The translations under genes were made by a program, and so were the position numbers. A stretch of 32,040 nt of DNA from Armatimonadota bacterium (GTDB lineage Bacteria; Armatimonadota; UBA5829; DTJY01), in the NCBI GenBank assembly GCA_025358205.1, contig JANYKG010000108.1, forward strand, positions 1-32,040, given 5' to 3'. Within the stretch, counting starts at the first letter, position 1. Each line of letters opens with the position of its first letter. This document shows, piece after piece, positions 18,001-31,561 of the stretch. The notes beneath the pieces are model-generated. The model ran no database searches. It was not told where the DNA came from and worked only from the letters and a program-made list of their open reading frames with translations.

Positions 18001-18128
18001 TCCAAGCCCCCTGCGGCCATTCGCCATCAGCCGTACTCCGGTTACCTCTACCGAGTGACCAACCCTAGTTCACTCATCACTGATCACTGCCCCATCGAGC
18101 ATCACCCCCGGATGTCGCTCCGAGATGT

Positions 18129-18157
18129 TTGACAACTCGCGGGATTTGGTATATACT
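18129..18157 (+). promoter_or_regulatory. Strong sigma70-type promoter of the arsR-like gene
   Basis: TTGACA (18,129-18,134), a 17-bp spacer and TATACT (18,152-18,157): near-consensus. About 48 bp separate it from the ATG. Confidence 0.8.
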
Positions 18158-18163
18158 GCATAT
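18151..18163. promoter_or_regulatory. Operator-like dyad over the -10 box
   Basis: ATAT-actgc-ATAT (18,151-18,154 and 18,160-18,163) is an AT-rich dyad overlapping the -10 and probable start point, the usual place for an ArsR-family repressor. Binding is inferred. Confidence 0.45.
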
Positions 18164-18204
18164 GTCGTGACTTCTCGATGTTTCCACTATTGCGGAGGTG
18201 TGAT

Positions 18205-18501
18205 ATGAACATACTGCCGAACGACGTTCTGGAGGAATCAGCGGCCTGCTTGAGGATCATGGCGCATCCTGTAAGACTGAGGATTGTTGACATACTCATG
18301 CAGGGTGATCTTGCGGTACACGAGATATCCGAGTTGTGCGGCATGAAGCCCAACCAGATCTGCGAGCACCTGAGGCTGATGCAGACTAGCGGACTCCTGA
18401 CCAGCAAGCGCGAGGGCCGATCGGTGCATTACCGTATCGTCTCCCCTCGCCTACCATCGCTGCTGAAGTGCATCTGCGAGAACTGCAAACCATCAGAGTA
18501 A
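18205..18501 (+). CDS. ArsR/SmtB family transcriptional regulator, Cys-rich
   Basis: 98 residues with the winged-helix fold: MAHPVRLRIVDIL (~19-31) and the recognition region ISELCGMKPNQICEHLRLMQTSGLLTSKREGRSVHYRI (~41-78). GGAGGT lies 5 nt before the ATG; a longer in-frame start at 18178 lacks an SD. The metal motif ELCVCD of ArsR/CadC is absent. Instead there are Cys15, Cys45, Cys53 (recognition helix) and a C-terminal Cys89-x-Cys91-xx-Cys94 (KCICENC). This fits a thiol, persulfide or metal sensor. It is placed just ahead of a sulfur-trafficking fusion, so it probably represses its own operon until sulfide/persulfide builds up. The ligand is inferred. Confidence 0.88.
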   Translation: MNILPNDVLEESAACLRIMAHPVRLRIVDILMQGDLAVHEISELCGMKPNQICEHLRLMQTSGLLTSKREGRSVHYRIVSPRLPSLLKCICENCKPSE

Positions 18502-18539
18502 TTGAATGGCAGGCGGACCATCTATGGGTGCGATCCTGC

Positions 18540-18568
18540 CGTCTTGAGACGCAGGCTGAAGACCTGCG
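18540..18568. repeat. Hairpin repeat between the arsR-like gene and the sulfur fusion gene
   Basis: CGTCTTGAGACG (18,540-18,551) is a palindrome, followed by CGCAGG (18,550-18,555) pairing with CCTGCG (18,563-18,568). This 'GCAGGCTGAAGACCTGC' style sequence looks like a dispersed element inserted in the 101-nt gap. Confidence 0.55.
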
Positions 18569-18602
18569 GCTACAGAATTTCGGAGCCGACAAGGAGCTTG
18601 AA

Positions 18603-21071
18603 ATGGCTGACAAGATGAGACTGGTCGTGATTGGTGGAGTGGCTGGAGGAGCGTCCGCGGCCGCGCGCGCAAGACGACTTGATGAGGACGCGGAGATCAT
18701 CCTACTGGAACGCGGCGAGTTCGTTTCTTTCGCGAACTGTGGGTTGCCTTACCACATCGGCGGCACTATCAAGGAGCGCGAGAAACTGCTGGTTCAGACA
18801 CCTAAGACGCTCTACGCCAACCTCCGCATTGACGTGCGCATTAGAACCGAAGCCGTCCGCATTAACCGTGAACGCAAGGAAGTGGTGGTCCGAAGCGCTG
18901 AGACCGGCACTGAGCAGACGATATCATACGATAAACTAATCATCAGCCCGGGCGCTGAACCTATTCGCCCACCCATCCCCGGAGCGGACGATCCGCGAGT
19001 GAAGACCCTTCGGTCAATGGCCGATATGGACGGCATCATCGCGCTTCTGGGCGAGAAAGCCCCGACACACTCGCTCATCATTGGCGGCGGATACATAGGT
19101 CTGGAGATGGCGGAGGCTCTGCGTGACCGTGGCCTTGGCGTAACACTGGTTGAGCTTGCGCCTCAGGTAATGGGGCCTATTGACGCGGAAATGGCCGCAC
19201 TGCTCCACCGCACGCTCAAGATGAACGGCGTGGACCTCAGGCTAGAAACATCGGTCACCAGATTTGAGGCCGCCGGTAACACGCTGAAGGCATGGCTGAA
19301 CAACGGCGAAAGTGTGGACTGCGGGCTGGTGATGATGGCGATCGGCGTCAAACCGGATATCGGCCTGGCGAAAGATGCCGGTCTGCAGATCGGTGATCGA
19401 GGCGGCATCTTAGTGAACGACCACATGCTCACGAACGACCCCAACATCTATGCAGTGGGCGACGCAGTGGAGGTGAAGGACTTCGTAGGCGGGTTCCAGA
19501 CGCTCATCCCGCTGGCAGGCCCGGCGAACCGGCAGGGACGCATCGCGGCGGACAACGCGATGGGCCGAGACAGCGCATACAAGGATACTCAGGGTACAGG
19601 CATATGCAAGGTCTTCGAACTGGCGGTCGGTATGACCGGCATGAACGAGAAATCGCTTAAGCGCGCGGGGATGCCGTACGAGAAGATTTACGTTCACCCG
19701 GCCAGCCACGCCAGCTACTACCCCGGCGCAAGTCCTATCAGCCTCAAGCTGCTCTTCGACCCGAATGACGGACACATATTGGGCGCACAGGCGGTTGGCA
19801 CGGACGGCGTGGACAAGCGCATAGACGTACTGGCCGTGGCGATTCGTGCAGGCATGACGGTCTACGATCTTGAGGAGATGGAGCTGTCCTATGCCCCACC
19901 CTACGGCTCGGCGAAGGACGCGGTCAACTACGCAGGTTTCGTTGCGTCGAACGTACTTCGCGGGGATGTTGGCATTTTCCATACTGAGGAGGCGGTCAAC
20001 CCGACCGAAGATCAGGTTCTCCTGGACGTACGCACTGCTGAAGAAGTGGCCGCGGGTACCATTCCCGGTGCCATGCATATCCACATACAGGAACTCCGCG
20101 ACCGGCTGGGCGAACTGCCGAAGGACAAGGAACTGCTCGTCTTCTGCCAAGTCGGGCTGCGCGGTTATCTCGCCTGTCGGATTCTCACCCAGCGCGGCTA
20201 CAGGTGCAGAAACCTAACCGGTGGCTACAAAACTTACAGCATCACCATGGACAATGCGCCGATTGAACCCACCCCCAAATGCCATGACATGAAGGACGAT
20301 TCAGGATCAGGCTGCTCAACCGCAGTCAAGGAGCAGAGTACGATGAAGATAGTAAAGACCGTAGACGCCACCGGCATTCAGTGCCCCGGCCCTATCATGC
20401 GCCTTGCCGCCGAACTACAGGGACTGTCCAATGGTGAAGCCCTGACCATCACCAGCAGCGACCCCGGTTTTGCGCATGACGTGCTGCCGTGGTGTCACAG
20501 CACCGGGAACACTCTCATCGAGGTAGCGCCGGAGGGTGGAGCGTACAAGGCGACCGTCCAGAAGGGCGGCGGGCAGACCTCTGTGCAGACCGGTCAGGCG
20601 GGCAAGAACAAGACCATTGTGGTCTTCAGCAGTGATTTCGACAAAGCCGTTGCGGCATTCGTGATCGCGAACGGCGCGGCGGCGATGGGCAGCGATGTCA
20701 CCATGTTCTTCACATTCTGGGGCCTGAACATTCTGCGCAGACCGCAGGGTACACATGTGAAGAAGAACCTGATCGAGAAGATGTTCGGATTGATGATGCC
20801 CAGAGGCGCGGACAAGCTGAGCCTCTCCAAGATGAACATGGGCGGCATGGGCCTGGCGATGATAAAGGGGATCATGAAGTCGAAGAACGTCCCCTCTCTG
20901 CCCGCGTTCATCGGGTCCGCACGAGCGGCGGGGGTCCGCATGGTGGCGTGTACCATGTCCATGGACCTGATGGGCATCAAGGCCGAGGAACTGATAGACG
21001 GCGTGGAACTCGGCGGCGTGGCGATGTACCTGGACAAAGCCGAAGCCGGGAATGTGAACCTGTTTGTTTAG
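18603..21071 (+). CDS. Four-domain sulfur-trafficking fusion: CoA-disulfide reductase-like, rhodanese, TusA, DsrE2
   Basis: 822 residues. Domain 1 (~5-450) is a flavin disulfide reductase: FAD motif GGVAGG (11-16), redox Cys46 in SFANCGLPY, NAD(P)H motif IIGGGYIGLEMAE (~159-171) and IYAVGDAVE. Domain 2 (~458-555) is a rhodanese with Cys515 in the loop CQVGLRG. Domain 3 (~581-650) is TusA-like with Cys594 in QCPGP. Domain 4 (~670-822) is DsrE2-like with Cys783 in VACTMSMDLMGI. Together these can reduce CoA- or glutathione-type persulfides and pass sulfane sulfur between cysteines. The long upstream extension is repeat-derived; ATG 18603 follows AGGAG by 6 nt. It sits downstream of the ArsR-like regulator. 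Confidence 0.92.
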   Translation: MADKMRLVVIGGVAGGASAAARARRLDEDAEIILLERGEFVSFANCGLPYHIGGTIKEREKLLVQTPKTLYANLRIDVRIRTEAVRINRERKEVVVRSAETGTEQTISYDKLIISPGAEPIRPPIPGADDPRVKTLRSMADMDGIIALLGEKAPTHSLIIGGGYIGLEMAEALRDRGLGVTLVELAPQVMGPIDAEMAALLHRTLKMNGVDLRLETSVTRFEAAGNTLKAWLNNGESVDCGLVMMAIGVKPDIGLAKDAGLQIGDRGGILVNDHMLTNDPNIYAVGDAVEVKDFVGGFQTLIPLAGPANRQGRIAADNAMGRDSAYKDTQGTGICKVFELAVGMTGMNEKSLKRAGMPYEKIYVHPASHASYYPGASPISLKLLFDPNDGHILGAQAVGTDGVDKRIDVLAVAIRAGMTVYDLEEMELSYAPPYGSAKDAVNYAGFVASNVLRGDVGIFHTEEAVNPTEDQVLLDVRTAEEVAAGTIPGAMHIHIQELRDRLGELPKDKELLVFCQVGLRGYLACRILTQRGYRCRNLTGGYKTYSITMDNAPIEPTPKCHDMKDDSGSGCSTAVKEQSTMKIVKTVDATGIQCPGPIMRLAAELQGLSNGEALTITSSDPGFAHDVLPWCHSTGNTLIEVAPEGGAYKATVQKGGGQTSVQTGQAGKNKTIVVFSSDFDKAVAAFVIANGAAAMGSDVTMFFTFWGLNILRRPQGTHVKKNLIEKMFGLMMPRGADKLSLSKMNMGGMGLAMIKGIMKSKNVPSLPAFIGSARAAGVRMVACTMSMDLMGIKAEELIDGVELGGVAMYLDKAEAGNVNLFV
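20328..20345 (+). promoter_or_regulatory. Possible internal ribosome binding site at the TusA domain boundary
   Basis: AAGGAG (20,328-20,333) stands 9 nt before an in-frame ATG (20,343) that is exactly the first residue of the TusA-like domain (MKIVKTVDATGIQCPGP). It could start a separate ~242-residue TusA-DsrE2 protein, or be a relic of an ancestral separate gene. Confidence 0.4.
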
Positions 21072-21322: not shown

Positions 21323-21351
21323 TTGACAATCTCACTTTCTTGTGGTACGAT
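21323..21351 (+). promoter_or_regulatory. Strong sigma70-type promoter of the transsulfuration operon
   Basis: TTGACA (21,323-21,328), 17-bp spacer, TACGAT (21,346-21,351). The start point would be near 21,358, giving a leader of about 100 nt. Confidence 0.7.
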
Positions 21352-21367
21352 TCAACGAACTAGCTGA

Positions 21368-21424
21368 CTGGAAAACCAGAGGCGAGTAAGTTGCACATCA
21401 TTTGTGCGTCTTGCTCGCCTTTTT
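21368..21424 (+). terminator. Leader hairpin pair ending in an intrinsic terminator (attenuator or small RNA end)
   Basis: A small hairpin CTGG-aaaa-CCAG (21,368-21,379) is followed by GGCGAGTAAG (21,381-21,390) pairing with CTTGCTCGCC (21,410-21,419), with an inner GCAC/GTGC stem, then five T. It has the form of a rho-independent terminator inside the leader, 34 nt before the cystathionine beta-synthase start. No known riboswitch class is recognised. Confidence 0.7.
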
Positions 21425-21457
21425 GCGTTTTCCGTACTATCAACCTGGGGGAAAACC

Positions 21458-22831
21458 ATGAAATACTGCGAAAGCGTACTGGAATCCATTGGAAACACTC
21501 CGTTAATCAGACTCTCGAAAGTGACGGACGGGCTGCCTGTAACCATGCTCGCGAAAGTCGAGTATCTGAATCCCGGAGGCAGCGTGAAGGACAGGATCGG
21601 GCTGGCGATGATCGAGGATGCGGAGCAGCGGGGACTGCTTGCACCTGGCGGCACGATCATAGAGGCTACGGCCGGCAACACAGGCGTAGGTCTCGCGATG
21701 GCGGCGGCGCGCAAAGGTTACAGATGCATATTCGTCATGCCGGACAAGATGAGCGATGACAAGATCAACCTGCTCAAGGCCTATGGAGCCGAGGTAGTCA
21801 TCACTCCTACCTCCGTTCCGCCTGACTCGCCTGAGAGCTACAACGGTGTGGCTGATCGTCTTGCCAGAGAGACTCCTGGATCGTTTCGCCCGAACCAGTT
21901 CGCCAACCAGAGAAACCCGGAAGCGCACTACAAGAGCACAGGCCCTGAGATATGGCGGGATACCGAAGGCAAGATTGACGTGTTTGTTGCCGGAATGGGT
22001 ACCGGTGGCACCATCTCCGGCACGGGCAAATATCTGAAAGAGCAAAACCCCAACGTGATCGTGGTTGGGGCCGATCCCGAGGGTTCAATCCTCTCTGGAG
22101 ACTCGCCCAAATCCTATCGCGTGGAGGGGATTGGCGAGGACTTCATTCCGTCCACATTCAACCGCCAGGTCGTTGATGAGATGGTGCGCGTGAACGACGC
22201 CGAATCATTCTCGATGGCGCGAAGACTTGCTCGCGAAGAGGGACTGCTAGTAGGCGGATCATCTGGAACGGCGGTGGCCGGAGCAATGAAGTATGCCAGA
22301 CGGCTCGATCCGGGCAAGATCATAGTTGTTCTGCTCCCAGACAGCGGACGCAGCTATCTCTCCAAGATATTCTCCGACCGCTGGATGCAAGAGAACGGAT
22401 TTCTGGACTATGTGGCGGATCATGTTACGGCGGGAGACGTTCTCAGAACCAAGCATGGGGTCGCGGCGCTCGTCTCCATCAGCCCATGTGATAAGGTCAT
22501 CGAGGCCATGCGGATCCTGGAGAAGTTCGGCATATCCCAATTGCCCGTGATAGACAGTGGGGCTGTAGTGGGAAGTCTCAATGAGGTAACGCTTGTCAGG
22601 CTTCTTCACGACCACGTGGACCTTAGTGAGAAGCCGGTGTCCGAGGTGATGGGATCGCCGCCTCCACAGGTTGATGAGCTCACTGACATATCCGAGCCGT
22701 ATCGCCTGCTTCTCGCCGGCCACGGCGGTGTGATAGTAACCCGAGGCGGCAGAGCTTTCGGATTCCTTTCAAGGATAGACCTTGCACACTTCTGGGCAAA
22801 CGCCAGGGCCGAGGAAGGGGTAACGGCGTGA
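21458..22831 (+). CDS. Cystathionine beta-synthase with C-terminal CBS pair
   Basis: 457 residues. The enzyme joins homocysteine and serine to cystathionine, the first step of reverse transsulfuration, using PLP. Lys44 in NPGGSVKDRIG is the Schiff-base lysine; ATAGNTGVGLAM (~70-81) binds the substrate carboxylate; GMGTGGTISGTGKYLKE (~172) and the GGSSGTA block (~266-272) hold the PLP phosphate. Residues ~328-450 form two CBS domains that usually bind adenosyl ligands. This separates it from plain cysteine synthase (~310 residues). No N-terminal haem region is present, as expected in bacteria. SD GGGGG lies 6 nt before the ATG; a longer in-frame GTG start at 21404 falls inside the terminator stem. 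It overlaps the next gene by GTGA. Confidence 0.92.
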   Translation: MKYCESVLESIGNTPLIRLSKVTDGLPVTMLAKVEYLNPGGSVKDRIGLAMIEDAEQRGLLAPGGTIIEATAGNTGVGLAMAAARKGYRCIFVMPDKMSDDKINLLKAYGAEVVITPTSVPPDSPESYNGVADRLARETPGSFRPNQFANQRNPEAHYKSTGPEIWRDTEGKIDVFVAGMGTGGTISGTGKYLKEQNPNVIVVGADPEGSILSGDSPKSYRVEGIGEDFIPSTFNRQVVDEMVRVNDAESFSMARRLAREEGLLVGGSSGTAVAGAMKYARRLDPGKIIVVLLPDSGRSYLSKIFSDRWMQENGFLDYVADHVTAGDVLRTKHGVAALVSISPCDKVIEAMRILEKFGISQLPVIDSGAVVGSLNEVTLVRLLHDHVDLSEKPVSEVMGSPPPQVDELTDISEPYRLLLAGHGGVIVTRGGRAFGFLSRIDLAHFWANARAEEGVTA

Positions 22832-23970
22832 AGTTCTCAACAAAGGCAATCCACATAGGCCAGGATGCCGATCCGACCACCGGCGCGACGGTTGTGCCGA
22901 TCTACCAGACGTCCACCTACACGCAAGAAGAGATCGGCAAACACAAAGGCTATGAGTACACCCGTACTGGCAACCCTACGCGCGCCGCGCTGGAGCAATG
23001 CTTGGCCTCGCTTGAAGATGCTGAGCACGGATTGGCATTTGCGTCAGGTCTCGCGGCAACCTCGTCCGTGCTGTCACTTCTTCGGCCAGGAGACAAGGTG
23101 GTCGCGGCGGCAGACCTATACGGCGGAACGTACCGGCTCTTCGAGAAAGTCTATCGTCCGATGGGCATTTCGTTCGCCTACATTGATGGACGTGACCCTG
23201 ACGAGTTCGGGCATGCGGCAGACTCTGACACGAAGCTGATATGGATTGAGACGCCTACCAACCCGCTGCTGCAACTCGTTGACATATCAGCCGTTGCAGA
23301 GATCGCGAAGGCGAAGGGAGCCTTACTCGCGGTGGACAACACTTTCGCGAGCCCCTATTTCCAGAGGCCGATCTCCCTCGGCGCAGACGTTGTAGTCCAC
23401 AGTACCACCAAGTACATCGGCGGACACTCAGATGTTGTCGGAGGCGCAGTCATCACGAGCGATCAGGATGTCTACGAAGCAGTGAAGTTCTATCAGAATG
23501 CGGCGGGCGGAGTCCCCGGCCCATTCGATTGCTGGCTGACTCTCCGGGGCGTCAAGACACTGGCGATCAGGATGCGCCAACACGAGCACAACGCCATGCG
23601 CGTGGCCGAAGAGCTCATAAAACACCCCCTCGTGAAGTCGGTCAACTATCCAGGCCTAACAGAGCATCCACAGCATGAGCTTGCAAAACGGCAGATGGAT
23701 GGGTTCGGTGGAATGGTATCGTTTGAGATCCATGGAGGACGGGACGAAGCGAATCGGTTCTTCAAGAACCTGCGGCTGTTCTCTTTTGCCGAGAGCCTGG
23801 GTGGAGTTGAGTCCCTTGCCTGCTATCCGCCGGCTATGACTCATGGGTCTATCCCCAAGGAAGAGCGCGAGCGTCGTGGTATCACGGATGGGATGATCAG
23901 ACTATCGGTAGGAGTCGAGGATATAGAGGATCTGATAGCAGACCTCAAACAAGCGCTTGCGGCGATCTGA
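22828..23970 (+). CDS. Cystathionine gamma-lyase / gamma-synthase family enzyme
   Basis: 380 residues, PLP enzyme of the Cys/Met metabolism family. Motifs: YEYTRTGNPTRAALE (~42-56), FASGLAAT (~71-78), the aspartate in LLAVDNTFASPYFQRP (~167-182) and the PLP lysine Lys195 in HSTTKYIGGHSDVVGG. The start is GTG within the GTGA overlap with the beta-synthase stop, so the two are translationally coupled. Next to a cystathionine beta-synthase, the lyase role (cystathionine to cysteine, 2-oxobutyrate and ammonia) is more likely than the gamma-synthase role. Such enzymes can also release hydrogen sulfide or make cysteine persulfide, which fits the upstream sulfur module. Confidence 0.92.
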   Translation: MKFSTKAIHIGQDADPTTGATVVPIYQTSTYTQEEIGKHKGYEYTRTGNPTRAALEQCLASLEDAEHGLAFASGLAATSSVLSLLRPGDKVVAAADLYGGTYRLFEKVYRPMGISFAYIDGRDPDEFGHAADSDTKLIWIETPTNPLLQLVDISAVAEIAKAKGALLAVDNTFASPYFQRPISLGADVVVHSTTKYIGGHSDVVGGAVITSDQDVYEAVKFYQNAAGGVPGPFDCWLTLRGVKTLAIRMRQHEHNAMRVAEELIKHPLVKSVNYPGLTEHPQHELAKRQMDGFGGMVSFEIHGGRDEANRFFKNLRLFSFAESLGGVESLACYPPAMTHGSIPKEERERRGITDGMIRLSVGVEDIEDLIADLKQALAAI

Positions 23971-24069
23971 AGCGCAACCCCGCAACCGAAGTGGACATGG
24001 AAAGCTGTCCAGATAGCGACGGACATGACAAACGGCGAGCGATGGCCGCCAAAGAATAGGAGAATCCAA

Positions 24070-24345
24070 ATGAAGAAGAGAATCCTCTCGTTAGCGTTGG
24101 CTCTGGCGTTCGGCATTCCCATATCGGGAACGCTTGCGTATGGTGCGCAGCGTCAGGTAAAGCGGGCGATTCCGAAGATCGTATCCGCAGTGTGTCCCGT
24201 GATGGGAACAAAGATCCCGGACATAACTAAGTCGGCGGGGAAGACCGTCTACAAGGGCAAGACCTACTACTTCTGCTGCGGAATGTGCAAGCCGGCTTTT
24301 GACGAGGACCCCGCAAAATATGTGAAGCAGGAAATCGCCAGATGA
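24070..24345 (+). CDS. YHS (TRASH-like) domain secreted metal-binding protein, copy 1
   Basis: 91 residues: signal peptide (~1-26, cut near AYGA) and a single YHS domain with Cys42 in AVCPVMGTK, then YKGKTYYFCCGMCKPAFDEDPAKY (Cys69, Cys70, Cys73). YHS domains bind copper or similar soft metals; a periplasmic chaperone or sponge role is inferred. AGGAG lies 7-8 nt before the ATG. Its domain is nearly identical to the YHS protein at 31,581, and the two bracket the RND efflux genes. Confidence 0.88.
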   Translation: MKKRILSLALALAFGIPISGTLAYGAQRQVKRAIPKIVSAVCPVMGTKIPDITKSAGKTVYKGKTYYFCCGMCKPAFDEDPAKYVKQEIAR

Positions 24346-24390
24346 TTACTGAACCTCGCAACAAGGGGATAACACGGATGGCGAATTGGT

Positions 24391-24417
24391 TTGTCCAGCA
24401 CAGCAATGTGGTATACT
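24391..24417 (+). promoter_or_regulatory. Possible promoter of the RND efflux operon
   Basis: TTGTCC (24,391-24,396) and TATACT (24,412-24,417) with a short 15-bp spacer, ~90 bp before the adaptor gene. The -10 is good, the -35 and spacing are weak; a metal-dependent activator would fit. No gene is seen in 24,346-24,507. Confidence 0.4.
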
Positions 24418-24507
24418 GATTATAGTGTTATCAAGTTATCTTGGCGCTCCGCGATGTGAGTGGCAAGCTTGCGATTAGTATTGCGCCTAAATACGAGGAG
24501 ATGACAG

Positions 24508-26241
24508 GTGGAAAAACAAGGTACTGCTCGGCGATTGGCGCCTAAGCATTTCTGGGGGATAACCCTGCTGGTCGTGCTGTTCATTCTGTCGAGCTGGGCT
24601 GTCAAGCACTTCAAGAAGCCCGGACAGATGACCGTGATTGAGTCTCAGGCGATGGACATGACCGCGATGAAGCCGCCGGTGGGTTCAGTCCCGGTAGCGA
24701 CGGAGTTCGTCGGTGTTGGTGCGTTCAGTGCGAAAGTGCGGTACACGGGTTCGGTAGTAGCCTACACCGAGCAGAATATCTACCCCCGCGTGGAAGGCTG
24801 GTTGACCGGACTCAAGGTATACAGCGGTGACCGAGTGAAGGCAGGTCAGTTGCTCGCGGTTCTCGATTCGCCGGACATTCAGAACAAGCTTTCGGAAGCC
24901 AACTACGGTCATGCGGCGGCGCTCCAGGAAATTCCCGTAGCACAGTCGAATCTCGCTCGTATGCGCGCTGAGAAAAATGCCTCCCGCAAAGAGATCAAAG
25001 CTGCGCAGACTGAGGTCGCAGGAGCGAAGGCCGGTCTGACCGCCGCACAGCGGATGGTGACGGGCGCAGAGCAGGAACTGAAGAGCGCTCAGGCCAACCT
25101 GAAGTACTGGAAAGCGGAGTTCATACGGCAGGGAAACCTCCTGAAAGCCGGCGCGGTTTCACAGCAGGAATACGATTCCGAGCAGTCACAACTCGGAGCG
25201 GCTGAAGCCGATGTAGCAGGCAAGCAGGCTAAGGTAGAAGAGGCCACGGCGAACGTGGATGCCGCGAGGGCTGAACTAAGCAATAAGCAGGCGCAGGTGC
25301 AGATCGCATCTGACAGGGCAACGTCCGCCGATGCCGCGCTTTCCGGCGCGTCCAGCGAGGTATCTCAGAAGTACGCTATGGCGAACATGGCCGGAGCGCA
25401 GAAAGCCACCGCCGCCACGTTCAACCAGTACCGAATGATTCGATCCCCCCTCGACGGCGTGGTGACCAAGAGATTCCTCAGCCCCGGTGTGCTGGTCAGT
25501 CCGGGAACCGCCATACTGAACATCGCGCAGATAGACAAAGTCAGGCTGCAGGCAAACGTCGCGGAGCAGGACTTGGCCAATATTCGCATCGGCGCAGAGG
25601 TGACCGCACGCGTGACTAAGGGTAAAGGCATGACGATACGCGCAGTTGTGTCATCGGTATCGCCGTCTTCTGACCCGTCCAGTCGCACCGCGGTCGTCGA
25701 GGCAATCGTAGACAATCGCGGCCACGCACTTATCCCCGGTGATTTCGTGAGCATGGAGATATCCACATCCTCAGACCCGAGCGTCCTCACGGTTGCTTCA
25801 AGCGCACTCGTCTCTAAGGACGGACGAGACGCTGTATGGATCACGCAGTGTACGAAGAGCGGCGGCAAGGTATCCTATTACTGCACCATGCACCCGAACG
25901 TAGTGTCCGATAAACCCGGTCTGTGCCCAAAATGCAACATGGCGCTTGAGAAGAAGCAGGCAGATACCGGCAAGGTGGCACACCTTGCATACGTCACGCT
26001 CGGCAAGACCGACGGCAACAGAACGGAGATTATCTCAGGTCTCAACCAGGGTGATGAGGTAATATACAAAGGCCAGCGATATCTGCACGAGGGCGACGCG
26101 GTCACCCCAGTCAAATGGGGCGCTGACGGTCTGGAGCAGCTTCCTCCACCGCCGAGCGGAGCAGCCGACTTGCAGATGCCCGGCATGGGCGGCGGTGACA
26201 AGGGCAAGGCGGACAACAGTATGCCTGGAATGAAGATGTGA
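24508..26241 (+). CDS. RND efflux periplasmic adaptor (HlyD/CusB type) with heavy-metal-binding domain
   Basis: 577 residues. One N-terminal membrane anchor (~19-32), lipoyl/barrel halves around ~75-120 and ~300-400, and a long alpha-helical hairpin (~125-290) rich in Ala, Glu and Gln. Near residue 459 lies a heavy-metal-binding insert, YYCTMHPNVV ... PGLCPKCNMAL, typical of CusB/CzcB relatives. The C-terminus is Met-rich (two MPGM motifs), suiting Cu(I) or Ag(I) binding. The start is GTG, 7 nt after GAGGAG. It begins the adaptor-permease-accessory-TolC order. Usual copper/silver efflux adaptors have the metal domain at the N-terminus; here it is near the C-terminus. Confidence 0.9.
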   Translation: MEKQGTARRLAPKHFWGITLLVVLFILSSWAVKHFKKPGQMTVIESQAMDMTAMKPPVGSVPVATEFVGVGAFSAKVRYTGSVVAYTEQNIYPRVEGWLTGLKVYSGDRVKAGQLLAVLDSPDIQNKLSEANYGHAAALQEIPVAQSNLARMRAEKNASRKEIKAAQTEVAGAKAGLTAAQRMVTGAEQELKSAQANLKYWKAEFIRQGNLLKAGAVSQQEYDSEQSQLGAAEADVAGKQAKVEEATANVDAARAELSNKQAQVQIASDRATSADAALSGASSEVSQKYAMANMAGAQKATAATFNQYRMIRSPLDGVVTKRFLSPGVLVSPGTAILNIAQIDKVRLQANVAEQDLANIRIGAEVTARVTKGKGMTIRAVVSSVSPSSDPSSRTAVVEAIVDNRGHALIPGDFVSMEISTSSDPSVLTVASSALVSKDGRDAVWITQCTKSGGKVSYYCTMHPNVVSDKPGLCPKCNMALEKKQADTGKVAHLAYVTLGKTDGNRTEIISGLNQGDEVIYKGQRYLHEGDAVTPVKWGADGLEQLPPPPSGAADLQMPGMGGGDKGKADNSMPGMKM

Positions 26242-26251
26242 GGCGCAGACC

Positions 26252-29200
26252 ATGAGCACACTAACACCTGACACCCAACACCAAGCGCCTGCCCCCCACC
26301 GCTACAATGCTTTGCACATGATCCACAAGTGGTCCATTGAGCACCCGTACATGATTATCGCGTTCTACCTTGCTGCAATGATTATGGCGGTAATCACCAT
26401 CGGATTCTACCTGCCGAGGCGGTTCATGCCTTATGTGGAAAGTCCGATGATTGGCGTTGTCACGATGATGCCGGGACTCTCCTCACAGGAGATGGAGACC
26501 TATGTCTCCAAGCCTATCGAGGAGCAGATCGTCAACGTCAAGAACCTGCACTTCATCCGGTCCACATCGCAGGACGGCTTCAGCATAGTCAGCCTGGAGT
26601 TCAACTACGGCACGGACATGAAGAAAGCGCTGTTCGACGTGCAGTCGCTGATGAACGTCATCCAAGCGAACCTGCCCGCTACCGGCGCGAATATCAAGCC
26701 TTCATGGGTACTGGCCATTGACCCGCTGAATGTGCCAATTCTCGCCCTATCGGTGACGGGTGACGAACGCTGGGATAAGGTGAAACTGCGGGAGTTTGTA
26801 GACAACGATGTGGTCAACAAGCTGAAAACGATACCGGATGTTTACTCCGTGGTTCCCTTCGGCGGATACAAGCGGCAACTCCAGGTCGTGGTTGACCGGG
26901 ACAAGCTCGCGGGCTACAAGCTCTCGATACTTGACGTGAAGAACGCGATTGACCGAAACAACGTGGGCCGATCCGCAGGCACGCTCACGAGTGGGTCGAA
27001 CGAGGCGATAGTACGAATTGATACCAAGGCGCTTGACCCCCAGACGGTGATGAACTACCCGATCACCAGTGTCACTGCTTCCGGTGTCCAGCCGCGACCT
27101 GCTCCCTCTAGTGGAGGCTCCGGCGGTATGGGCATGGGCGGTGGCACAAACCAATCCGAAATCCGAAATCCGAAATCCGAAATATCGCAGGGCGATTCCA
27201 TGACGGTGTACGTGCGTGATGTTGCAAAAGTGATTGACAGCCACTGGGAGCGGAGAAGCGCCTACCACTATGTTGACAAGGGCAAGATCAAAGAGGCGAT
27301 AGAAGCCGCGGTGGTGCAGGACCCTGGTGCCAGTTCGGCAAAGGTAGTTCCCGCCGTCCAGAAGATGCTCCGCCAGCTTGAAATGGATAATCCAGGCGTC
27401 AAGTTCGAGGTCGCCTATGACAACGCGCACTTCGTTAATATCCTCTTCAAGAATATGTTCGATGAACTGGGTATTGCCATCCTGCTCACCGGCATCGCGG
27501 TGCTGTTGTTCCTGGGCGAGTGGCGCGGGACTCTCATATCCCTGATCACCATACCTGTCTCGCTTGCCATCGCGATAACGGCTCTGGCTCCCATGGGAAT
27601 GACGCTGAACAGCGGCACTCTCATAGGCCTTCTGCTATCCATTGGGCGATTGGTGGACGACTCGATCATTGATATCCACGCGGTGGAGCGCCACATGCGG
27701 ATGGGCAAAGACCCGAAGACCGCGACCATTGACGGCATCGCCGAAGTCCGGCTTGCGGTTATCGCCTCCACCATCATGCTGGTCATGGCGTTGTCCCCTC
27801 TCCTGTTCTCCGGTGGCATTGTGGAACTGATGTTCCGTGAATTGGTATGGCCGATCATCCTCGGTCTGATGGCTTCGATGCTGGTATCGTTCACCCTGAC
27901 TGCTTTGCTGTGCGCGAACCTGCTGAAACCACACTCTGAGCTGGAATCCGAACGCGGCAAGTGGTTCTATCGGAGAGTGCTGGGGCCGATTCAGGTATCT
28001 CTGGACAAGATGGAGCACGGATACGCCAATGTGATCAAGTGGATGCTTCTCCACAGGTTCACTAACATGGCTCGAATCCTGGCGACGGTGATCATCGGGT
28101 TCACATTCTACCACTTCATCGGCAGCGAGATGATGCCGCTTGCCGATGTCGGCCAGGCATACGGCATCCTTGAGATGGATTCCGGCGCATCGTTCGCGGA
28201 GACTGAAAACGCCACCACCGCTGTCGAGAAGATCATGGCGAAACACCCGGAGATCGAGAAGGTCTCCACCGAGATCGGCGCTGAGTCCATGTTCGAATCG
28301 TTCAGCCCGCTCTACACCGGGTACGCGATGCCGTCCGCCAACGCCGCAACCTTCATGATCACACTCTCCGACAAGGATGCGCGGAAACACGATGACATCT
28401 GGAAGATCATAGACTCGGTACAGAAAGAGGCCACATCAACCATCCCCGGCATACGCCGTTTCCAGATCAAGGAGATGGGCTCGGACGTGATGGCATCCTC
28501 ACTCGCGCCGGTCTCGCTTATCGTGTACGGTAAAGACATGGACCAACTGTCGCTGATCGGCAACAAAGTTGCGGAGATCGCGAAGAACACGCCCGGCATG
28601 TACCAGGTCGCCACAAGCTGGTCGCTCGACAAGCCGTCGTACAAGATAGACGTCATCCCGGAGAGGGCGCAGGCGCTCGGCCTGACACCGGAAGAGATAT
28701 CGCAGCAGGCGTACTACTCACTGCGAGGCGGCCTGACGAACGAGTGGTACCGGCTGCCGAACGTCCGGCAGGACACGGTTTTGGTGCGCTATGACCAACA
28801 AGACCGTGGAAACGCCATTGACCTGGAGAACATGTACATCACCGGCGCAAATGGAGTTCAAGTGCCGCTGAAGAGCATTGCGAACATCAAGTACGAGCCG
28901 ACTCCGACCATCGTGGAGCATGACGGCGGGCGCAGAGTCATTAGCATCAACGGCTTCTATCGGAAAAGCGGTCCGCCATCCATGGGCCTGACGATGGACG
29001 TCCAGATGAAGGCGATGAGTCAGATCAACTTCCCGCCTGGCTACGGGATAGAGGCGCGCGGTGACATGACGCAGATGATGGACTCGTTCGCACGGCTTCT
29101 GAAAGGGTTGCAGATCGCGCTAATCTTCATCTTCCTGGTGCTGGTCGCGCAGTTCAGAGGATTCCTGCAGCCGTTGCAGATGGTCTTCTCCCTGCCGCTG

Positions 29201-29692
29201 GAACTCTCCGGCGTGTTCGTCGCGCTTTTCATTGCACATCAGGCATTCTCGACTGTATCTATAATGGCAGTCCTGGTGCTCACCGGTATGGATATCACGA
29301 CGGCCATCCTGCTGATTGATATGATCGCGCGCTATCGAGATCGCGGTATGCCGAGAGATCAGGCGGTGGCTGAGGCGTGTCCGCAGAGGCTCCGACCGAT
29401 CCTTATGACCTCGCTCATCACCATGATCGTCATGGCGCCGGTCGCGTTCTGGCCGAAGACGGGCATGGACGCCTACCAACCGCTCGGAACCGTGATCCTT
29501 GGAGGTCTCCTGATAGGAACGATTCTCTCGCTCTTCGACATTCCTATCATGCACACCTACGTGGACGACTTCATCGTGTGGATCAACCGCCGGTTCATGA
29601 AGCGCGAGTGGGAATGGCCCGTGACAGAATCTTTCCACGAGAACGAGCGACCGAACAGACTGACTGCGGAGCATCCCGATGAAACAAGCTGA
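26252..29692 (+). CDS. RND family efflux permease
   Basis: 1,146 residues, inner-membrane proton-driven pump with twelve expected membrane segments: one at ~29-50, a cluster at ~400-560, one near 605-622 and a C-terminal cluster at ~965-1100. TM4 has RLVDDSIIDIHAVERH with the paired aspartates of the proton relay. TM10 reads GMDITTAILLIDMIARYRDRG, so Thr-Thr replaces the Lys-Asn of AcrB. The first periplasmic domain carries a Gly/Met-rich stretch and the 4 x AATCCGA-derived NQSEIRNPKSEIS near residue 300-312, probably a surface loop. Sequence is divergent from AcrB and CusA; metal specificity is inferred from the neighbours. It overlaps the next gene by 14 nt. Confidence 0.9.
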   Translation: MSTLTPDTQHQAPAPHRYNALHMIHKWSIEHPYMIIAFYLAAMIMAVITIGFYLPRRFMPYVESPMIGVVTMMPGLSSQEMETYVSKPIEEQIVNVKNLHFIRSTSQDGFSIVSLEFNYGTDMKKALFDVQSLMNVIQANLPATGANIKPSWVLAIDPLNVPILALSVTGDERWDKVKLREFVDNDVVNKLKTIPDVYSVVPFGGYKRQLQVVVDRDKLAGYKLSILDVKNAIDRNNVGRSAGTLTSGSNEAIVRIDTKALDPQTVMNYPITSVTASGVQPRPAPSSGGSGGMGMGGGTNQSEIRNPKSEISQGDSMTVYVRDVAKVIDSHWERRSAYHYVDKGKIKEAIEAAVVQDPGASSAKVVPAVQKMLRQLEMDNPGVKFEVAYDNAHFVNILFKNMFDELGIAILLTGIAVLLFLGEWRGTLISLITIPVSLAIAITALAPMGMTLNSGTLIGLLLSIGRLVDDSIIDIHAVERHMRMGKDPKTATIDGIAEVRLAVIASTIMLVMALSPLLFSGGIVELMFRELVWPIILGLMASMLVSFTLTALLCANLLKPHSELESERGKWFYRRVLGPIQVSLDKMEHGYANVIKWMLLHRFTNMARILATVIIGFTFYHFIGSEMMPLADVGQAYGILEMDSGASFAETENATTAVEKIMAKHPEIEKVSTEIGAESMFESFSPLYTGYAMPSANAATFMITLSDKDARKHDDIWKIIDSVQKEATSTIPGIRRFQIKEMGSDVMASSLAPVSLIVYGKDMDQLSLIGNKVAEIAKNTPGMYQVATSWSLDKPSYKIDVIPERAQALGLTPEEISQQAYYSLRGGLTNEWYRLPNVRQDTVLVRYDQQDRGNAIDLENMYITGANGVQVPLKSIANIKYEPTPTIVEHDGGRRVISINGFYRKSGPPSMGLTMDVQMKAMSQINFPPGYGIEARGDMTQMMDSFARLLKGLQIALIFIFLVLVAQFRGFLQPLQMVFSLPLELSGVFVALFIAHQAFSTVSIMAVLVLTGMDITTAILLIDMIARYRDRGMPRDQAVAEACPQRLRPILMTSLITMIVMAPVAFWPKTGMDAYQPLGTVILGGLLIGTILSLFDIPIMHTYVDDFIVWINRRFMKREWEWPVTESFHENERPNRLTAEHPDETS
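27153..27180. repeat. In-frame AATCCGA x4 repeat within the RND permease gene
   Basis: Four exact 7-nt units AATCCGA in tandem, followed by a degenerate unit (AATATCG). This type of repeat is normally intergenic; here it is translated. Confidence 0.85.
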
Positions 29693-30224
29693 TGTAAAGC
29701 CGCGCAGACGGTGGATCGTCATCGGACCTGGCTTGGTTCTGGCCGTGATTCTCGCGATACAAGTAATGATCGCGAATCGGCCAAAGCCTGCCGGGCGACC
29801 CATCATCGAAAGACAGGTTATCGGAAGCGAAGTTATACAAACTGCCACGCCCGCACCGGCGATCAGCTATATCCTTGAACGCAAACAGCAATTGGCTCTC
29901 GGTGATCGGCAAGTGAAGGCGTTGAACGCACTCCAGGTAGACTGGCAATCCAAGTCCAAGCCGCTCTCGGCTGAACTGAACAAGGCTGCCGGTGAGTTCA
30001 ATGCGTTCATGAAAACTGCGGAAAACAAAGCAACCATGAAAGATATTCAGTCTCACTCCGGGCCTGTCTCCGAGTTGTCCCGCCAGGTCTCCAGTCTTCG
30101 GCGGGTGTACTGGGAGAAAGCGCGCCAGATTCTCTCCGCACCCCAGCAGCAAACGCTTGATAAAGAACTATCTCGCGGTTACCATCCGAAATCCGCGCAA
30201 CTAACAGGAGGTACCAGCCGATGA
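29679..30224 (+). CDS. Membrane-anchored Spy/CpxP-like periplasmic protein
   Basis: 181 residues. A basic N-terminus and one membrane segment (~12-32) anchor a periplasmic helical part. LERKQQLALGDRQVKALNAL (~66-85) and YWEKARQILSAPQQQTLDKEL (~145-165) resemble the helix ends of Spy/CpxP-type (LTxxQ-like) proteins, which bind unfolded proteins or metals. The match is weak. It starts within the permease gene and ends on the ATGA start of the TolC gene, so it is an integral part of the efflux operon. SD GGAG is 7 nt upstream. It could instead be a small assembly factor of the pump. Confidence 0.7.
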   Translation: MKQADVKPRRRWIVIGPGLVLAVILAIQVMIANRPKPAGRPIIERQVIGSEVIQTATPAPAISYILERKQQLALGDRQVKALNALQVDWQSKSKPLSAELNKAAGEFNAFMKTAENKATMKDIQSHSGPVSELSRQVSSLRRVYWEKARQILSAPQQQTLDKELSRGYHPKSAQLTGGTSR

Positions 30225-31561
30225 ACAGGCATCCGGCAATGTGGATATTGACCACCGCTCTACTATGGGCCATCGCGCCGCCCTTGTCCGCCGACATTCA
30301 GACGACAACTGCAGGCGCTTCCCAACCCACAGTCTCCGGGCCGCTCAGCCTCGCTGACGCCGTGAACACCGCGCTGAAGTACAGCCCAATGGTTCAAGCC
30401 GCCGGTGACCAAGCTCTGGCTGCTCAGGCCAGGGTTGGCATGGCGCGCGCTATGACCAGACCGCAAATCTCCGCAACGGCTTTCGGTGGAAACTCCAAGA
30501 TGGGCGACATCATCACCTCGCCGCCGAGTGTCATGCCGTCAGCCGTCTTCGCCGTTCCAAGGAATGGCAGCGTCACCGGGCAGGTGGGGCTGATGCTTCC
30601 GCTCTACACGGGCGGACGGCTCTCCGGCGCGGTGCATGGAGCAGAGGCGCTCTCAACAGCGGCTGCTTCCGACCGGGCTTCGGTGGAACGGAACACCACA
30701 CTGGAGACCAAAACCGCCTATCGAACGACCCTGCTCGCGCGGGCTACCATTGAGGTGTACGCCGATCTCGTCAAGGAGGAGCAGGAGCGCGTCCGAATCG
30801 CTGAAGTATCGTTCACTGAGGGTCGAATCGCCAAATACGATCTCCTGCGAAACCAGGCAGGACTCGCGGAGGCACAGCAGCAACTCGCAAATGCCGAACG
30901 GGATGCTCAGGTCGCAATGATCGGTCTCAAGACCGTGATGGGTGTGGCTCCTGCTTCGGACTTCACGCTATCGGACCAGCTTGCCTATGAGCAGGTGACT
31001 GGAACAGCCGAGTCATACCTCGCGACTGCACTGAAGAATCGCCCGGAGTTGGCCTCTGCGAAAGCCAGACGCAGTTCGGCAGACGCGAACGTTGGTGTCG
31101 CGAAGGGCGCATACTCTCCGCAGGTGTATGTGAGCGCGATGGAGGGTGTGATATCCACATCGGATGGCACCGACACCGGTTCGACCGTGGGTATCGTGGT
31201 CGGGCTGCCGATCATTGACGGCGGACTCCGGCGCTCTGCCGTAAAAGAGGCCGAATCAATGCGCGATGCCATGAGGAGTGACGAGCAGCAGGCCGTTCTT
31301 GCAGTGCAGCAAGATGTGAACACCGTCTGGGCCGAACTCCAGGCTGCCGATAAGAACGTTCAGCTATCGCAAGCGGCGGTGACACAGGCGGAGGAGGACT
31401 ACCGCGTTATTAGACTTCGCTACGAATCGGGTAAAACCGTAAATGTGGAGGTTCTTGATGCTCTGGCATTGCTGGTCAGGGCAAAGAACAACAGGCTTAT
31501 GGCGTTGTACGAACACAATGTGGCCAGGGATAGACTGGTAAGAGCAGTCGGTAAGCTATGA
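30221..31561 (+). CDS. TolC-family outer membrane efflux protein
   Basis: 446 residues with a signal peptide (~1-24, ending PPLSA). The two repeated halves of the OEP family are visible: the first from LSLADAVNTALKYSPMVQAA (~42) with long helices to ~230, the second from ATALKNRPELASAKARR (~268) to the end. LPLYTGGRLSGAV (~126) and LPIIDGGLRRSAV (~328) are the paired turn motifs before the helices. GGAGG stands 9 nt before the ATG, which overlaps the previous stop (ATGA). It forms the outer-membrane channel for the RND pump, which also shows that the organism has an outer membrane. Confidence 0.93.
   Translation: MNRHPAMWILTTALLWAIAPPLSADIQTTTAGASQPTVSGPLSLADAVNTALKYSPMVQAAGDQALAAQARVGMARAMTRPQISATAFGGNSKMGDIITSPPSVMPSAVFAVPRNGSVTGQVGLMLPLYTGGRLSGAVHGAEALSTAAASDRASVERNTTLETKTAYRTTLLARATIEVYADLVKEEQERVRIAEVSFTEGRIAKYDLLRNQAGLAEAQQQLANAERDAQVAMIGLKTVMGVAPASDFTLSDQLAYEQVTGTAESYLATALKNRPELASAKARRSSADANVGVAKGAYSPQVYVSAMEGVISTSDGTDTGSTVGIVVGLPIIDGGLRRSAVKEAESMRDAMRSDEQQAVLAVQQDVNTVWAELQAADKNVQLSQAAVTQAEEDYRVIRLRYESGKTVNVEVLDALALLVRAKNNRLMALYEHNVARDRLVRAVGKL

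Follow-up and report, generated by a model that had tools for sequence, protein, structure and literature searches.

What does a small ArsR-family regulator do in front of a gene for a long sulfur-handling fusion enzyme, and to which signal would it respond? The question is raised by a stretch of 32,040 nucleotides from an Armatimonadota bacterium (contig JANYKG010000108.1 of assembly GCA_025358205.1; the window, hereafter, is this whole stretch). Its + strand carries, in this order, a promoter, an ArsR-family gene, and an 822-codon gene whose start lies 101 nt past the ArsR stop codon. We think that this pair is probably a locally autoregulated unit for the reductive clearance of persulfides. 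What we observe in support of this reading is the order of the genes, the promoter, a conserved operator, the domain make-up of the fusion, the conserved cysteines, and the single-copy rhodanese and TusA. The features on which the argument is built are the following.

18129-18157, + strand: sigma-70-type promoter, TTGACA-17-TATACT, agreeing with the consensus at 11 of 12 positions.
18160-18183, + strand: candidate ArsR operator, ATATGTCGTGACTTCTCGATGTTT, identified by its recurrence at the equivalent position in each of the six loci of the ArsR clade, its matrix score, and its unique exact match in the genome.
18205-18501, + strand: arsR-type gene for a putative repressor of 98 aa, identified by matches to HTH_5 (2.4e-07) and HTH_metalloreg (6.2e-20), alignments, a tree, and an AlphaFold2 model (pLDDT 90.9).
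18603-21071, + strand: gene for the four-domain fusion (CoA-disulfide/persulfide reductase, rhodanese, TusA, DsrE2) of 822 aa, identified by Pfam, NCBIfam, and PDB matches and an alignment of 12 homologues.
18738-18740, + strand: codon of C46, the flavin-proximal cysteine of the reductase (SFANCGLPY), shared by every homologue that covers this segment; 3NTA has the same motif.
20145-20147, + strand: codon of C515, the active-site cysteine of the rhodanese (CQVGLRG), invariant in 12/12.
20382-20384, + strand: codon of C594, the TusA cysteine (CPGP), invariant in 12/12.
20949-20951, + strand: codon of C783, the DsrE2 cysteine (ACTMSMDLMG), invariant in 12/12.

Promoter, operator, and operon

The near-consensus promoter had already been noticed in an earlier reading of this DNA made without database searches (the sequence-only reading), and it is borne out: the -35 element TTGACA lies at 18129-18134 and the -10 element TATACT at 18152-18157, with a spacer of 17 nt. 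We looked on the + strand between the ArsR gene and the fusion gene for promoter-like or terminator-like sites and found none, which is why we read the two genes as a single operon behind this promoter, in agreement with their earlier treatment as one unit. An Rfam search of the window gave no match.

The operator consensus was derived from the upstream regions of six loci: the window, L015 (G150), L050 (G005), L051 (G174), and two from Phycisphaerae (L004 and L012). The dyad occurs just downstream of the -10 element at all six loci carrying this clade of ArsR, and TTGACA also stands 5' of it at L015, L050, and G174. Cross-species comparison places the core dyad of the window, ATGTCGTGACTTCTCGATGT, at 18162-18181 (six-locus consensus ATRTCGWGANNTCWCGATRT); it begins 4 nt past the -10 element and spans the expected transcription start. 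A matrix made from the five other loci gives it 25.7-29.0 bits, against 5.2 bits for the runner-up in the 32-kb window, and in a held-out test the operator was the top-scoring site of its own locus in each of the five others. The sequence-only reading was right that an operator-like dyad exists here and imprecise about its position; the range that it proposed for binding tests (18,120-18,170) cuts the operator in two.

The putative repressor looks local and autoregulatory because, in the genome (4.08 Mb, 97% complete), the operator has its sole exact match at 18162-18181, a single other site has one mismatch (C151:40845-40864; by a hand estimate, chance alone would give about 0.1 of these), and a reversed-pattern control yields roughly as many sites with three mismatches as the operator does. 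The near-match lies where a membrane-protein gene ends, just 5' of a ceramidase-like gene, and could be due to chance. A regulon that reaches beyond the operon to this one site may exist.

The fusion enzyme and its cysteines

The fusion starts at ATG 18603, preceded by AAGGAG, and ends at 21071. Pfam resolves it into Pyr_redox_2 (6-312), Pyr_redox_dim (335-435), Rhodanese (467-545, 7.9e-14), TusA (585-654), and DrsE_2 (668-821). The closest structures are the Npsr-type proteins 3NTA and 3NTD (E about 1e-200; 1.5e-200 for 3NTA, which aligns with residues 6-547); the coenzyme A (CoA)-persulfide reductase 8A56 also matches (5.7e-146), and the DsrE part is nearest to 3PNX (1.5e-32). The protein has the features of the Npsr, CoADR-Rhd (CoA-disulfide reductase-rhodanese), and CoAPR (CoA-persulfide reductase) enzymes, i.e., a pyridine nucleotide-disulfide oxidoreductase fold with a single flavin-proximal cysteine and a C-terminal rhodanese with its active-site cysteine. 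In the monomer model (pTM 0.62), two linkers (556-580 and 657-666) have pLDDT < 50. The alignment of 12 homologues, one row of which begins after C46, confirms that the four reactive cysteines of the sequence-only reading (46, 515, 594, and 783) were exactly placed and are conserved; together with the domain order, they support its idea of a four-domain sulfur-transfer enzyme in one chain.

Family searches of the genome detected a single rhodanese and a single TusA, each of them part of the fusion, and three matches to HTH_5. They found no ACR3 or ArsB arsenite pump in the 97%-complete genome (ArsC, ArsM, and ArsP were not searched). With the sole detectable rhodanese and TusA in the fusion and no such pump, the case for an isolated sulfur unit, earlier called 'self-contained', is supported and an arsenic reading is weakened.

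By analogy with related enzymes, we infer that the fusion reduces persulfides at the expense of NAD(P)H with a CoA shuttle; that sulfur is the inducer of the regulator, and in which direction sulfur would move through TusA and DsrE2, are suppositions only. The process would involve 1) an ArsR dimer bound to the dyad, where it would cover the transcription start and block the operon; 2) modification of conserved ArsR cysteines by reactive sulfur (persulfide, polysulfide, or equivalent thiol-reactive sulfur species), upon which the repressor would leave and the fusion would be made; 3) loading of sulfane sulfur onto the cysteines of the rhodanese, TusA, and DsrE2 domains, with the rhodanese taking it as Cys-SSH and the other two most simply acting as extra acceptors that feed the rhodanese/CoA step; 4) transfer of the sulfur, probably via CoA, to C46 beside the flavin; and 5) release of the sulfur as H2S by NAD(P)H at C46, which would restore the thiol. 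Cysteines that face apart in the fusion would not refute such transfer, because CoA spans a long gap in the CoAPR of Enterococcus faecalis, where it bridges two active-site cysteines about 27 Å apart across protomers (PMC9405070).

The regulator and competing explanations

The regulator most likely starts at ATG 18205, which has a ribosome site (GGAGG) just 5' of it; starts at ATG 18178 or 18187 were dropped because 18178 falls within the conserved operator and 18205 has this site. The protein passes the cut-offs of the ArsR/SmtB superfamily (HTH_5, 31 bits against 22; NF033788, 70.8 against 55), and its fold finds PDB matches at TM about 0.8. As described in the sequence-only reading, it is small, lacks ELCVCD, and has six cysteines (15, 45, 53, 89, 91, and 94), ending in a CxCxxC (C89-I-C91-E-N-C94). 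C15, C45, C53, C89, and C94 are invariant across the six members of the clade; C91, the middle cysteine of the terminal motif, is found in the window protein only, the relatives keeping the outer two. In the AlphaFold2 model, C15 lies in α1, C45 at the end of α3, C53 in the recognition helix α4, and C89 and C94 in α5; the SqrR, BigR, and HlyU reference stretches with which we compared it stop before their α5 cysteine. The column of C53 has a serine in 38/38 other aligned ArsR proteins, references included.

The six proteins form a single clade (support 100/98) in a tree of 91 columns with several long branches, in which deep placement is weak. They join a neighbouring group with moderate to weak support (80/87); all members of this group have C89 and 11/14 have C45. 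The window protein sits apart from the zinc and arsenic reference sensors, clustering with which would have refuted the sequence-only reading, and it does not cluster with SqrR or BigR, against which a check had been proposed, or with HlyU either. No specific NCBIfam equivalog searched reaches its cut-off with this protein (40.1 bits against 155 for BigR; 32.8 against 150 for CmtR, the Cd/Pb sensors). Membership of SqrR/BigR was dropped on three grounds: the missing α2 cysteine, the BigR score, and the position in the tree. The clade is apparently a subgroup not described before, marked by a cysteine pattern and a conserved operator of its own. Tentatively, and with more doubt than confidence, we suggest that it could be a separate kind of reactive-sulfur sensor that uses this cysteine set instead of an α2/α5 pair; because C53 replaces a near-universal serine of the DNA-recognition helix, its sulfuration, by itself or with a bridge to C45, C89, or C94, would break the contact with DNA directly. 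Elsewhere, at L083 and L092, a regulator of the neighbouring clade (with C45 and C89) is followed by a rhodanese, and L083 also encodes a metallo-beta-lactamase-fold protein resembling persulfide dioxygenase.

A number of points weigh against a unit for persulfide clearance. First, the canonical α2/α5 cysteine pair, which does the sensing in ArsR sensors of sulfane sulfur (PMC10509353, PMC12423496), is absent: the α2 column (BigR ...RLMLVC...) has a cysteine in BigR, SqrR, and HlyU and D29 in the window protein. Second, the neighbourhood evidence in favour is weak. The similarity class of the neighbouring clade has a TusA, rhodanese, or CoADR gene no more than 4 kb away at 5/20 loci, against 0/20 for other ArsR proteins (one-sided Fisher p = 0.024), but the groups were chosen by motif and by rank of similarity to the window protein, and genomes that are related do not count as independent, so that the link to sulfur genes is suggestive, not strong. 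The earlier claim that the regulator senses the same sulfur species as the enzyme is not supported as written, gene neighbourhood being its one footing. Third, no ArsR of this clade stands directly upstream of the fusions in G130, G001, G016, G170, and G056, and the regulator is therefore not required for the enzyme. Fourth, the homologous fusion of Bacteroides fragilis, BF638R_0572, is under a MarR protein, BmoR, being up 50-fold in the mutant without it, and its loss raises sensitivity to diamide (PMC6158253); by analogy, general disulfide stress also fits.

A unit against thiol/disulfide stress, in which the fusion would mainly keep CoA or other thiols reduced and the regulator would sense oxidants through a disulfide rather than sulfane sulfur, draws on these B. 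fragilis results. It is also consistent with RexT, an ArsR protein that senses H2O2 with another cysteine pair, in α3 (PMC10509353), and with the match of the fusion to the CoA-disulfide reductase family TIGR03385 (2.3e-145), but the score of this match (484.8 bits) is under the curated cut-off (578.8 bits). Furthermore, it is not obvious what plain disulfide reduction would gain from rhodanese, TusA, and DsrE2, whose cysteines are nonetheless invariant. We regard this explanation as unlikely.

We find it rather improbable that the regulator is a soft-metal or metalloid sensor, using C15, C89, and C94 for As(III), Sb(III), Cd, Cu, or Hg, with the fusion supplying sulfide or thiols for detoxification. 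Some ArsR proteins do have three-thiol metalloid sites away from α3. A Fusibacter arsenic operon holds an ArsR gene plus a CoADR-rhodanese gene (PMC5525254), and an efflux cluster with YHS, heavy-metal-binding, and RND components lies about 3 kb downstream of our operon. But this cluster sits beyond a gene pair with its own promoter-like site, within the window the operator motif is found only at the ArsR promoter, and the arsenite pumps are missing as described above. The regulator itself lacks the known metal sites: in place of the arsenic motif of the E. coli type in α3 (ELCVCDLC) it has DLAVHEIS (A and H at columns 37 and 39), and S80 and R82 occupy the columns of the α5 Asp/His zinc site of SmtB and CzrA (DHH in SmtB).

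Quite unlikely, too, is sulfur trafficking, with the rhodanese-TusA-DsrE2 half sending sulfur outward to a biosynthesis or oxidation pathway and the reductase half only recycling the carrier: this half is a protein of its own, without reductase, in Clostridia, no other TusA was found in the genome, and PMC4175335 describes TusA/DsrE-type proteins of M. cuprina that move thiosulfate, but in the window protein, as in its homologues, a covalent link ties the reductase to this half, and no outward sulfur acceptor is shown in the genome (DsrAB, Sox, sHdr, and DsrC were not searched for).

A pair for cystathionine beta-synthase and gamma-lyase (CBS-CGL) lies at 21461-23970. We did not count it with the operon: a promoter-like site of its own precedes it (21323-21351), a strong hairpin stands between, the operator motif is missing there, and at L015 we noticed no CBS-like gene downstream of the fusion. 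The hairpin, in the leader of the pair at about 21379-21425, is very strong and terminator-like and ends in a T-run (-42.5 kcal/mol, z -4.5); it matches no Rfam family, and it is a possible attenuator. The efflux genes are in a row at 24025-31561: a YHS-domain protein, a CusB/HlyD-type adaptor with a heavy-metal-binding domain, a 1146-aa RND pump, a 181-aa protein of no family, and a TolC-type channel. From this composition, they are likely a metal or drug efflux cluster.

Distribution and known systems

Full-length fusions are found in contigs of Planctomycetota, Kiritimatiellota, Verrucomicrobiota, Fibrobacterota, Bacillota, and Chloroflexi. Among 201 sampled genomes of the phylum to which the window belongs, 10 have a copy, in one case with internal stop codons. 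All six regulators of the window's clade stand directly upstream of a fusion. Other fusions follow ArsR proteins of other clades, without the cysteine set or the operator of the window, in Kiritimatiellales (L005 1661-1957), Verrucomicrobia (L006 5626-5922), and Eubacterium callanderi (L014 5657-5947). ArsR control of the fusion was probably acquired more than once. The enzyme itself is likely a collapsed operon of formerly separate genes, because in G115:C110 (L126 2178-4609, - strand) CoADR-rhodanese, TusA, and DsrE2 are three consecutive genes on the same strand in the order of the fusion; no ArsR of the window's clade was found in that stretch. The Clostridia proteins that join rhodanese, TusA, and DsrE2 without the reductase are encoded at L016 5914-7008 (preceded by a ThiF/MoeB-like gene), L017 5875-6987, and L018 433-1497.

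The fusion is not a new architecture but an ordinary member of one that is already published (PMC6158253, PMC7887784); what is new is the regulator, with its operator. The four domains recur in BF638R_0572, in unchanged order and at nearly the same length (CoADR 14-440, Rhd 462-540, TusA 589-657, DsrE 671-825; PMC6158253), with the MarR protein BmoR in place of an ArsR with the present operator. Among lake metagenome bins, PMC7887784 lists an Npsr-DsrE-TusA-rhodanese combination as a 'novel gene' that would serve sulfur reduction; the domain set is that of the window fusion, but it is described there with two rhodanese regions, and the passages concerned analyse no regulator.

The fusion condenses the persulfide relay into one compact protein, and we found neither a rhodanese nor a TusA apart from it in the genome. 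CstR, a repressor of the CsoR family and thus of another family than ours, offers a parallel. In E. faecalis, this persulfide-sensing repressor controls CoAPR, a CoA-persulfide reductase-rhodanese (PMC9405070; PDB 8A56), but the CoAPR chain stops at the rhodanese domain. The authors of PMC12423496 remark that the α2/α5 pair is missing from many ArsR regulators encoded near sHdr sulfur-oxidation genes, which may act differently. The present locus is a concrete case of a regulator without the pair: five cysteines are invariant in its clade, the operator is defined, and a single target gene is obvious, so that the question can be put to a direct test. SqrR, BigR, HlyU, and SoxR share with it the ArsR fold, a suspected cysteine-based sensing, and the association with sulfur genes (PMC10509353, PMC12423496), but they are defined by the α2 cysteine, whereas the window regulator has Asp29 at that position, another set of cysteines, and a separate place in the tree.

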